From assembly GCF_002906575.1 (NCBI RefSeq), contig NZ_CP026309.1:1922001-1986000 (forward strand): a DNA stretch of 64,000 nucleotides, written 5' to 3'. This document shows positions 14,817 to 22,069 of the stretch, piece by piece. This DNA comes from Salinigranum rubrum (lineage in GTDB: Archaea > Halobacteriota > Halobacteria > Halobacteriales > Haloferacaceae). Position numbers and translations under genes: made by a program. The notes beneath the pieces were generated by a model. The model saw only the letters and a program-made list of their open reading frames with translations. It did no database searches and was not told the origin of the DNA. Position 1 is the stretch's first letter. The number at the start of each line of letters is the position of its first letter.

Positions 14817-17375
14817 CTACTGTTCAGCGGCCGACTCGTCGCCATCTCCGTCCTTGTCCCCATCCCCGTCGTCGTCGCTCGCCTGCGCCACCGCGGCCGG
14901 GACGACCGAGACGGCGCCGACGGCGTCCCCGTCCTCGACGTCCATCACCGTCACGCCCTTGGTGTTTCGGCTGATGACGGAGAGGTCGTCGACGGCCGTC
15001 CGGATGATCTGGCCCTTCTCGCTCATCACGACGATGTGGTCGCCGCGACCGACGGTCTCGATGGTGCAGACGGGACCGTTTCTCCCCTCGGTCTTGATGT
15101 CGATGAGCCCCTTGCCGTTGCGTGACTGCTTGCGGTAGTCGGCGATCTTCGTCCGCTTGCCGTAGCCGTTCCGCGTGACGGTGAGCGTCCAGTCGTGGCG
15201 CCCCTCGTCGACGGCCGCGAGTCCGGCGACCCGGTCGCCCTCTCTGAGGTCGATACCGCCGACGCCGCGTGCGCTGCGTCCCATCGCGCGGACCTCCTCC
15301 TCGTCGAAGCGGATGCTCATCCCCCGTTCGGAAGAGACGATGAGGTCGTGTCTCCCGTCCGTTACCTCGACGTCGGCGAGTTCGTCGCCCTCTTCGAGGG
15401 TGATGGCTCGAATCCCGGTCGAGAGGATGTTCTGGAAGCGGTCGACGTTCGTCCGCTTGACTCTCCCGCCTCGGGTGACCATCGTCAGGAACTTCTCGTC
15501 ACCCTCGTCATCGTCGTCGTTCACCTCCAGGTCGTCGCAGTTCACGACGGCCTGAATCTCCTCGCCCGCGTCGAGGTCGAGGTAGTTGACGAGCGCGCTC
15601 CCCCGGGTGTAGCGCGTCTCCGGCCGCGGGAGTTGGTACGTCTTCAGCTTGTACACCTGTCCGCGGTCGGTGAAGCAGAGCAGGTAGTCGTGGGTGTTGG
15701 CGACGAAGACGCTCGCGACCTTGTCACCCTGTTTCAGTTCGCTGCCGATGATACCCTTGCCGCCGCGGCGCTGGGCCCGGAACCACGACAGCGGCATCTG
15801 TTTCACGTAGTCGTCCTCGGTGACGACGACGACCACGTCCTCCTCGGGAACGAGGTCCTCTCGCGTTACTTCACCGTCGTTCTCGACGAAGTTCGTCCGG
15901 CGGTCGTCGCCGTACCGGTCCTTGATTTCGAGCAGTTCCTCCTCGATGACGCCGAGCAGTTCGGACTCGTCGCCCAGAATCGTCTCCAGGCGCTCGATGG
16001 TGGCTTGGACCTCCTCGTACTCGGTCTCGATGGCTTCCGTCTCCATCGACGTCAGCGAGCCGAGTTGCATCGAGACGATGTGGTCGACTTGCGCCTCGGA
16101 GAAGCCGTACGCTTCCCGAAGGGCCGCCTTCGCGCCGTCGCGGTCGTCGGCGTCGCGGATGATGTCGACCACGCTGTCGACGTGTTCGAGCGCCGTGAGC
16201 CGCCCTTCGAGGATGTGCGCGCGGTCTTCGGCCTCGGCGAGGTCGTACTCGGAGCGTCGGCGAACGACCTCCTTTCGGTGTTCGAGGTACTCGACGAGCG
16301 TCTGCTTGAGGTCCAACACCCTGGGCTCGCCGTCGACCAGGGCGAGGTTGATGACGCCGAACGTCGACTCCAGGTGCGAGGAGAGCAGGTGGTTCTTGAC
16401 GAGTTGGGGGTCGGCGTTGCGCTTGAGTTCGATGACGACGCGGATGCCATCGCGGTCGGATTCGTCGCGGATGTCTCGAATCCCTTCGAGGGAGCCGTCG
16501 TTGACGTCGTCGGCGATGCGCTTGATGAGCCGCGCCTTGTTCTCCTGGTAGGGAAGTTCGTTGAGGACGATTCGCTCCTCGGTGACCTCGAAGTCCGCCC
16601 GAACGCGAATACGGCCGCGGCCCGTGGTGTACGCCTTGTGGACCGCGTTCTTGCCGACGATGTTCGCGCCCGTCGGGAAGTCCGGCCCCTTGACCGGGCC
16701 GTCGGAACCGTTGCCACGGCCGTCGCGGGTGTCGACGAGGTCCTCGACGCCGCAGTCGGGGTCGTCGATGAGTTTGACGGTGGCGTCGATGACTTCACCG
16801 AGGTTGTGTGGCGGGATGTTCGTCGACATCCCGACGGCGATACCCGACGAACCGTTGACGAGCAGGTTCGGGAACGCCGCCGGCAGGACGGTGGGTTCCT
16901 CCGTGCGGTCGTCGTAGTTCGACTGGAAGTCGACCGTGTCCTTCTCGATGTCCTCCAAGAGTTCCTCGGCGATAGACGACATCCGCGCCTCCGTGTATCG
17001 CATCGCCGCGGCGGGGTCGCCGTCGACGGAGCCGAAGTTCCCCTGCCCGTCCACGAGGGGATAGCGCATCGAGAAGTCCTGTGCCATCCTCGTCAAGGTG
17101 TCGTAGATGGCGGAGTCGCCGTGGGGGTGGTAGTCACCCATCGTCTCGCCGACGATGGAGGAGGACTTCCGGTGGGAGGAGCCCGAGGAGATGCCCGCCT
17201 GGTGCATCGCGTAGAGGATGCGCCGGTGGACCGGCTTCAGTCCGTCGCGGACGTCCGGCAGCGCCCTCCCCGCGATGACGGACATGGCGTAGTCGATGTA
17301 CGACTGCTCCATCTCCTGCTCGATGCGAGCGTTCTCGACCTGTGCGGCGATCTTGGGATCGGAATCGGAACTCAT
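14817..17375 (-). CDS. gyrA: DNA gyrase subunit A
   Basis: 852 aa. The breakage-reunion core has the catalytic Tyr127 in [10 protein letters not shown]. The quinolone-determining region [14 protein letters not shown] keeps Ser88 and Asp92, equivalent to E. coli Ser83 and Asp87, so wild-type-like drug sensitivity is predicted. The C-terminal beta-pinwheel carries the GyrA box QRRGGKG at about residue 530, which marks a true gyrase able to wrap DNA and supercoil negatively, rather than topoisomerase IV. The tail is a short Asp-rich run ending SAAEQ. The ATG at 17373-17375 lies one base beyond the gyrB stop, so gyrB and gyrA form an operon. Haloarchaea obtained gyrase from bacteria in the distant past. 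Confidence 0.97.
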
Positions 17376-17376
17376 C

Positions 17377-19292
<1,916 letters not shown>

Positions 19293-19621
19293 AGAATCTG
19301 AACGTTGCTACGATTCGGTGTTGCTTAAACCCTCGCACGCGCGCGTGCGACTACATGAAGTAGCATTCGCAAGAACGAAAACGATGGCCGCGAACGGCCA
19401 AGATATCTTCGTCTTCTCCCGCTCGGGGTAACTCGGCGCGGCGGGATAACCCTGTCCCCGTGCGAGCCATCGGCTCCCCTGTACGCTACCCGGTACCACG
19501 TGCCAGGGTGCCGCGACGAACCGTCCGACGACTGGGCTCCGACGGTGTGTAACTCGCGATTTCACTTTCACCGTACCAGCGGAGAGTTCTTAACCGTCGG
19601 TACGGAACTGGTGGACAGACG
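19293..19621. promoter_or_regulatory. Divergent control region between gyrB and top6B
   Basis: This 329-bp gene-free stretch drives gyrase leftward and topoisomerase VI rightward. For gyrB, TTTAAG (19324-19329, minus strand) is 32-37 bp before the ATG. For top6B, TTCTTAA (19587-19593) is 29-35 bp before its ATG. Between them lie an 18-bp palindrome (19333-19350), an inverted repeat tggccg-cgaa-cggcca (19385-19400) and the palindrome aagatatctt (19400-19409). I find no small gene or tRNA in it. Confidence 0.75.
19333..19350. promoter_or_regulatory. 18-bp palindrome with 16-bp alternating pyrimidine-purine core
   Basis: tcgcacgcgcgcgtgcga is a perfect palindrome. Its core at 19334-19349 alternates pyrimidine and purine without a break, the sequence class most prone to Z-DNA under negative supercoiling. 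It ends only four bases upstream of the gyrB TATA box, in the BRE/upstream-activator position. Confidence 0.75.
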
Positions 19622-22069
19622 ATGACCTCGATACAGTCGACACTCGGCGAGGGAGACGAGGGTATCGCCGAGGAGCTGGCCAAGGGCCAGCGTGAGATCT
19701 CCATCGCCGAGTTCTTCGAGAAGAACAAGCACATGCTCGGGTTCGACTCGGGCGCCAGGGGGCTCGTCACCGCCGTCAAGGAGGCGGTCGACAACGCTCT
19801 CGACGCGACCGAGGAGGCCGGCATTCTGCCCGACATCTACGTCGAAATCAGGGAAGTGGACGACTACCTCCGGCTGGTGGTCGAGGACAACGGCCCCGGC
19901 ATCACGAAAGAACAGGTCCCCAAGGTCTTCGGGAAGCTCCTCTACGGCTCTCGCTTCCACGCCCGCGAGCAGTCCCGCGGTCAGCAGGGGATCGGTATCT
20001 CCGCGGCGGTGCTGTACTCGCAGCTGACCTCGGGCAAACCCGCGAAGATCACCAGCCGAACGCAGGGCAAGCCGGAGGCACAGTACTTCGAACTCATCAT
20101 CGATACGGACACGAACGAGCCCGAGATCAAAGAGTCCCGGGAGACCTCCTGGGACCGCTCGCACGGGACGCGCATCGAACTGGAGATGGAGGCGAACATG
20201 CGCGCCCGGGGGCAACTCCACGACTACATCCGCCACACGGCCGTCGTCAACCCCCACGCGCGCATCGAACTCCGCGAACCCGGGCTGGAAGAGCCGATGA
20301 AGTACGAGCGGGCGACCGATCAGCTCCCGGACCCGACCGAGGAGATTCGCCCCCATCCGCACGGTGTCGAACTCGGCACGCTGCGGAAGATGCTCGCCGC
20401 GACGGAGTCGTACTCCGCCTCGGGGTTCCTCCAGGAGGAGTTCACCCGGGTGGGCAAGAAGACCGCCGACAAGGTCATCGACAACTTCCGCGACCGTCAC
20501 TTCGGGCGCGAACTGTCGTGGACGCCTCCCCAGGCTCACGACGGTGTCGACCTCACGAGCGTCGTCGAGGGGGCGGTCGCCAACAAGGGCGCCTCTGCGA
20601 CGGCCGACTTCGCCCGCCGGGTCTCCGACGTGCTCTCGAACCGCGAGCGGGTCGCACACCACGAAGTGAGAGAGGTCGTCGCCACCTGTGCCGACGAGGT
20701 CGAGGCCGATTCCGGCACCCGGTTCGGGCCGACGGTGCGGGAGAACACGGTCGAGGCGCTCTGGGCGGCCGTGACCGGGCCCGGGGAGGAAGACGGTGAC
20801 GACGTGGAGGACGACGCCGGATACGGGCGACTGACCGCGGACCTCTACGCCGTCGTCGACGGGGTCACTTCCACCCGGAAGGACGACGCGACGAAGCAGG
20901 GGATGGCCGAACGCCTCGCTCGAAACGTCTCGGGACTGGACGACGGTCGCCACCGTCTCACCCACCGCGCCCTCGCCGACCTGGTGAACGGTGCCGCGGA
21001 CGACACCGTCGAGTACGACGAGGTCACGTTCGGCGAGACGGCCCGAGAGAACGTGATCGAGGCGCTCTGGTCGAGTGCTCGGACCGTCCCGGACGACCCC
21101 CCGAAGGTGAAGGAGATAGTCGACGACCGCGACTGCGCGCGGGCCCTGCTGGAGGCGATGCGGGAGACGGACATCCTCGCGCCCCCGACGACGTGCCTGT
21201 CGCCCATCTCAGCGGACCTCATCGAGGCCGGCCTCCGCGAGGTGTTCGACGCCGACTTCTACGCCGCCGCGACGAGGGACGCCGAGGTCCACGCCGGCGA
21301 CCCGTTCGTCGTCGAGGCGGGCATCGCCTACGGGGGCGACCTCGCCTCCGAAGGCTCTGTCGACCTCCTGCGCTTCGCCAACCGCGTGCCCCTCGTCTAC
21401 CAGCAGGGCGCCTGCGCCATCACGGGCGTCGTCAAGAACATCGGCTGGCGCAACTACGGCCTGGACCAGCCCGGCGGTTCCGGCATCCCGAACGGCCCCG
21501 CGGTCATCGCGGTCCACGTCGCCTCGACGAACGTCCCCTTCACCAGCGAGTCGAAGGACGCCGTCGCCAACGTCCCGGCCATCGAGGACGAGGTGGAACT
21601 GGCCATCCGAGAGGCCGCTCGCGAACTCAAATCGTACCTCAACCGCCGGCGGTCGATGCAGAAGCGCCGCAAGAAGCAGGAGGTCCTGGGGAAAATCCTC
21701 CCCGAGATGGCCGACAAGCTCTCGGAGGTGACTGGCCGAGAGCGCCCGAACATCGACGGTGCGCTCGCTCGGATCATGAACAACGTCAGCGTCGAGCGCG
21801 TGGTCGAGGGTGACACCGTGACCCTCGTCGTCGAGAACTACTCCGGGCGGAGCGAACAGCCCGAGATAACCGACATCCTCGCCGCCGAACCCTCGGGCGT
21901 CAACGGCGACGCCCAGGTGGTCGACCTCGACGGCGAGTGGTTCGTGAAGTGGTCCCCGTCGGTCCCGGCGGGCGAGACAGCGGAGTTGAGCTACACGCTC
22001 CCCGCAGACACCGACTTCGACATCGCCGTCGACGGCGTCGAGGCGGAGAAACTCACCATCAATACGTAA
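19622..22069 (+). CDS. top6B: DNA topoisomerase VI subunit B
   Basis: 815 aa. The GHKL ATPase starts at about residue 40 with [15 protein letters not shown], followed by [21 protein letters not shown] and the [15 protein letters not shown] lid. A helix-two-turn-helix/transducer region follows, with an enlarged acidic insertion between about residues 290 and 500 that contains two repeated segments ([10 protein letters not shown]... and [11 protein letters not shown]...). A C-terminal beta-sandwich (about 720-815, [20 protein letters not shown]) resembles the Ig-like domain known from some archaeal Top6B proteins. With Top6A it forms the A2B2 enzyme that relaxes and decatenates DNA. The top6A ATG follows the stop directly (taaatg), so they are co-transcribed. 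Confidence 0.95.

Follow-up and report, generated by a model that had tools for sequence, protein, structure and literature searches.

The gyrB promoter of haloarchaea carries a strongly conserved cis-element, a CG-rich tract of alternating pyrimidines and purines placed directly 5′ of the TATA box. In the window analysed here, a stretch of 64,000 nucleotides from Salinigranum rubrum (contig NZ_CP026309.1), this element occupies positions 19332–19349 on the minus strand and reads CGCACGCGCGCGTGCGAG in gyrB sense, with the core CGCGCGTRCGnG standing beside the TATA box; its delineation is based on a matrix of 106 promoters, the spacing, predicted Z-DNA energies and a profile match. The putative TATA box itself, TTTAAG on the minus strand and seen as CTTAAA at 19324–19329, is conserved in the genus as well as in the class, and the 2–5 bases between it and the core probably represent the BRE position. 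Downstream, a short conserved leader, AGATTCT (19293–19299, minus strand), precedes the gyrB ATG at 19292–19290 of the same strand, the likely start site being deduced from the spacing to the TATA box. According to the open reading frames, gyrB (17377–19292, minus strand) is directly followed by gyrA (14817–17375, minus strand), which by position would belong to the same operon, while the divergent neighbour on the plus strand is top6B, encoding subunit B of topoisomerase VI (19622–22069). An earlier note on this DNA had pointed out an 18-bp perfect palindrome, TCGCACGCGCGCGTGCGA, at 19333–19350, with a 16-bp core of unbroken pyrimidine/purine alternation (19334–19349) ending four bases (19330–19333) before the gyrB TATA box, and all of this is indeed present. 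Likewise, both additional repeats described toward top6B can be found, the TGGCCG/CGGCCA inverted repeat TGGCCGCGAACGGCCA at 19385–19400 and the palindrome AAGATATCTT at 19400–19409.

Regions upstream of gyrB were gathered from genus to phylum level, and a scan of genome contigs, yielding mostly bacterial gyrB, added two haloarchaeal loci. In 132 out of 133 haloarchaeal genomes representing 10 families, a 16-mer with a B–Z transition energy (E) of at most 12.4 is present in the gyrB promoter region, and every haloarchaeal family sampled in depth has the CG-rich alternating tract directly 5′ of the gyrB TATA box, with Natronorubrum bangense, Natrinema thermotolerans and, in a diverged version, Halorubellus salinus among the carriers. 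From 106 non-redundant promoters, the consensus CGC(G/T)CGCGCGCGTRCGnG in gyrB sense can be deduced, followed by 2–4 bases and then TTTAW, the whole tract spanning 18–22 bp. The pyrimidine/purine phase is held in 94–100% of this matrix at positions 12–19, the next position being free, and 104 of 108 promoters deviate from CGCGCGTRCG by at most one mismatch. On the distal side, G-to-T/C changes breaking the alternation are common at positions 7 and 9. The element is absent from one lineage (G045) of the 133-genome set and from three representatives (G043, G058, and G052) of families with small genomes, of which few were tested; small-genome haloarchaeal loci without it are L321, L322, L323, and L325. 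Outside the class, inspection of 17 gyrB loci from the same phylum (L241–L257) did not reveal the element. It is also lacking at the gyrB that Salinibaculum sp. KK48 carries on a plasmid (L381), where gyrA is not annotated as a neighbour.

The conserved part of this promoter element is the alternation, while the palindromic symmetry, which the earlier note had treated as part of it, did not hold up. Palindromes of at least 14 bp at the gyrB element are kept in only 6 of the 106 non-redundant relatives, and this rules out the palindrome as a functional feature. Palindromy alone is also unremarkable, because 10 perfect palindromes of at least 18 bp occur in 464 kb of the strain's own genome, corresponding to about one per 46 kb. 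Hence, although the perfect 18-bp palindrome of this genome could in principle be extruded as a cruciform or be transcribed as a hairpin, such an explanation is refuted by the lack of conserved symmetry and retains only a vanishingly small probability; a hairpin, moreover, should not be transcribed with gyrB at all given its position upstream of the TATA box. Within the genus, core and TATA box are conserved in the three congeners, in contrast to the two other inverted repeats, with AAGATATCTT common to only one of the three congeners and TGGCCG/CGGCCA to none. A role of these repeats as functional parts, as previously suggested, is not supported in view of this non-conservation.

For evaluating the propensity of the tract to adopt the left-handed conformation, dinucleotide B–Z energies (textbook values) were used in a simplified model resembling Z-Hunt, with a 464-kb sample of the own genome (463,685 windows of 16 nt) as background. 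The core in the window is the lowest-energy Z-forming 16-mer of all these 463,685 windows, and no other comes within 0.7 kcal. Across haloarchaea, the element has a median energy of 8.9 (range 6.8–12.4), compared to medians of 18.3 for own-genome windows and 17.0 when the letters of the elements are shuffled, while 51 top6B promoters gave a value of 20.0 with a minimum of 17.7. A low B–Z transition energy relative to background, which is a mark of Z-DNA-forming sequences, is accordingly a property of this tract. Alternating runs of at least 12 are found in 73% of the elements versus 0.6% of the shuffles, and 99% of the elements score better than 95% of the shuffled sequences made from them. 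The latter value also bears on the idea that the tract arose by chance or from the base composition of GC-rich genomes: haloarchaeal DNA is CG-rich and short alternating runs are found in coding sequence as well, but the tract keeps its fixed position in about 130 genomes while the flanks diverge and stays CG-rich even in genomes or flanks with less than 50% GC. This conservation refutes a chance or compositional origin, which we consider practically negligible.

The energies also vary less between promoters than would be expected from independent columns. Their standard deviation is 1.16 versus 1.99 when letters are permuted within columns, a procedure that preserves the matrix and whose null ignores phylogeny, and none of 300 permutations gave a value as small; with 54 cluster representatives, the corresponding values are 1.27 and 2.04, again with no permutation as small. 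Accordingly, breaks of alternation are spread over different sequences instead of accumulating in single ones, and poor Z formers (energies above 10.5) make up 8% of the observed elements compared to 22% in the column-permuted sets. Selection on alternation as a whole would produce such mutual avoidance of breaks, with the reservation that the null ignores phylogeny. A two-state estimate, rough since competition, proteins and salt are neglected, places the threshold superhelical density at about −0.041 for the element in the window and −0.043 for the element median, versus −0.060 for typical windows, and none of 2,724 windows is predicted to flip as easily as the gyrB element median. By these predictions, the tract ranks with the most Z-prone stretches that the genome contains.

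From these properties, a function of the element as a conserved, supercoiling-responsive cis-regulatory switch of the haloarchaeal gyrBA promoter can be proposed, a reading that in our judgement could equally well prove right or wrong. At high negative superhelicity, the tract would flip to left-handed Z-DNA and absorb twist, and the B–Z junction thereby placed against BRE and TATA box might hinder loading of TFB and TBP and lower gyrBA transcription. Once the DNA is relaxed, due to inhibition of gyrase or low ATP, the tract would return to the B-form and the gyrB promoter would fire, the outcome being negative feedback on gyrase. While the element and its constraint are directly apparent from the alignments, the flip, the obstruction of TFB/TBP and the sign of the effect are what we infer. 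The model fits the published induction of gyrB by novobiocin, for which PMC9348778 gives up to 20-fold in Haloferax with reference to Holmes and Dyall-Smith 1991; in Halobacterium, too, novobiocin stimulates gyrase (PMC3184054). The literature search, of partial coverage, did not retrieve a mapped cis element for the novobiocin-induced gyrB. Judging by the title of the 1996 work of Kim et al., which PMC12123511 lists among its references, short d(CG)n repeats reportedly adopt the Z-form in plasmids of Halobacterium, with repeat length and supercoiling, but not salinity, as stabilising factors. High cytoplasmic salt as driver of Z-DNA formation was dropped for this reason.

Some features of the element do not sit well with a pure Z-DNA switch. 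The proximal core is kept as a word, with T in 88% of the promoters at position 16, and this T speaks against a purely structural reading because CG is more Z-prone than TG or TA. In addition, alternation is often broken at the distal positions 7 and 9, and the tract stands at a set distance from the TATA box, as would be typical of a protein-binding site. The main rival explanation is that CGCGCGTRCGnG serves gyrBA as a binding site for a sequence-specific regulator, or as an extended TFB/BRE contact, with alternation as a by-product of a CG-rich word. We rate this as a serious possibility, albeit one falling clearly short of an even balance. It would account for the fixed TATA spacing, the near-invariant letters of the core including the T at position 16 and the fact that the distal half tolerates breaks. 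However, a regulator with essentially one target per genome would be unusual for a class-wide protein, the distal part varies in words yet keeps alternation, and the flavoprotein promoters described below share the geometry but, for the most part, not the word. A combination of both, in which the core is recognised by a regulator or nucleoid protein whose access is set by a B–Z transition of the adjoining alternating tract, would match the word constraint in the proximal 10 bp and the looser pyrimidine/purine constraint in the distal 8–10 bp; but it comes with no candidate protein and has more parts than the data require, and appears improbable.

With regard to specificity, scanning 97 genomes with the strict pattern CGCGTRCGNGN{2,4}TTTAW resulted in 64 matches, about 51 of them at gyrB promoters and 13 elsewhere, versus none with the reversed control, and most of the non-gyrB matches fall in coding sequence. 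Correspondingly, a profile built on sequence alone, with this genus left out, ranks the gyrB promoter first in nearly all genomes, with E=1.2e-4 at the own gyrB promoter and 0.11 for the next non-gyrB match. The same word does not recur at several promoters per genome, as would be expected for a regulon, and is found mainly at gyrB. A topoisomerase regulon was rejected, as topA promoters do not have the element at the TATA-adjacent position. A broader regulon defined by a generic pattern of CG tract plus TATA was rejected as well, with 34 matches, mostly in coding sequence, in 24 genomes being little above the about 19 obtained with the reversed control. In two species of one genus (g11; L446 and L447), the promoter of a PRK07218-type RPA gene bears TCGCGCCCGCGCGTGCAACGG-TTTTTA, a sequence closely resembling the gyrB element.

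Beyond gyrB, promoters of an SdhA/FrdA/NadB-like flavoprotein gene in 17 genomes from families f1, f4, and f6 show a Z-prone tract before a TATA-like sequence (loci L449, L450, L452, and L458–L474). These tracts have energies of 6.2–11.4 and the same pyrimidine/purine geometry as at gyrB, but the words are mostly different and only 2 of the 17 contain CGCGTRCG; homologues from family f7 have no Z-prone tract. Going further than the switch at the gyrBA promoter, it is conceivable, and we hold this only tentatively and somewhat below an even balance, that class-wide the DNA itself and not a protein sensor reads superhelicity at the gyrase promoter, thereby completing the feedback by which haloarchaea set their supercoiling, and that the fumarate reductase-like flavoprotein gene shares this switch in several lineages.

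The earlier note had also placed gyrase and topoisomerase VI under a shared divergent element setting the balance between them, for which the divergent arrangement of gyrB and top6B in many haloarchaea (PMC9348778) might speak. This, however, is not supported, because the element is equally Z-prone without top6B nearby (median E of 8.85 at 12 loci with top6B outside the fetched flank, compared to 8.9 at 31 loci with top6B) and because top6B has its own promoter. Furthermore, the distance of the element to the gyrB TATA box is fixed throughout, while anything between 135 and 443 bp can separate the two genes. Shared control was rejected on these grounds and is very unlikely; the best explanation is that the element serves gyrB and not top6B, the latter not being needed for it. 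The separate top6B promoter, about 240 bp away from the element, is conserved and comprises TTTCACTTTCA at 19560–19570 (plus strand) and a TATA-like TTCTTAA at 19588–19594. The former is the published UV-B-response motif, which also occurs at radA1 (PMC2556686). Like the gyrB tract, it is conserved, lies 5′ of a haloarchaeal TATA box and is found in the same intergenic region, but the genes to which it belongs are top6B and repair genes and not gyrB.

Coupling of alternating promoter tracts to supercoiling is a known idea stemming from the bop gene of Halobacterium, the RY box of which (Yang et al. 1996) reportedly lies at or downstream of the TATA box, with stimulation by supercoiling as its reported effect. 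Both promoters, bop and gyrB, have an alternating purine-pyrimidine tract beside a haloarchaeal TATA box, with a link to supercoiling and non-B DNA that for gyrB is predicted. The gyrB tract differs in lying 2–4 bp upstream of the TATA box and upstream of the BRE, in being CG-rich and longer, in its class-wide presence at gyrase and in the opposite expected sign, so that the analogy is a loose one. With the homeostatic, relaxation-stimulated gyrA and gyrB promoters of Escherichia coli, it would share a rise of gyrase transcription upon relaxation, but bacterial control is attributed to sequences around the −10/discriminator, whereas here the upstream Z-prone tract is the candidate. The d(CG)n inserts in Halobacterium plasmids, judging again by title, resemble it in forming Z-DNA from short CG repeats in a haloarchaeon in a supercoiling-dependent manner; these are engineered repeats, whereas the gyrB tract is natural and conserved. 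Our literature search, of partial coverage and not extending to the 1991 gyrB paper, did not bring up any class-wide element that is dedicated to gyrase and situated upstream of the TATA box. The findings address the question of how archaea with a bacterial-type gyrase balance supercoiling and provide a specific and conserved candidate, amenable to mutation in model haloarchaea. Should the B–Z mechanism hold, Z-DNA would here be maintained by selection at a single known promoter throughout a class, which is rarely seen, and its role would be directly measurable.

Two minor observations may be added. The UV-B-response motif in the form TTTCACTTTCA(C) is found 14–19 nt before the TATA box (19560–19570 in the window and loci L382–L400) not only at top6B but also at RPA and at a Hef-like helicase gene, and the published motif thus appears to extend to further replication and repair genes. 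In the assembly studied, gyrB is split into two frames (18921–19292 and 17377–18924) by a one-base deletion at about 18950, while being intact in the three congeners; in an essential gene, such a split suggests an error of sequencing or assembly.
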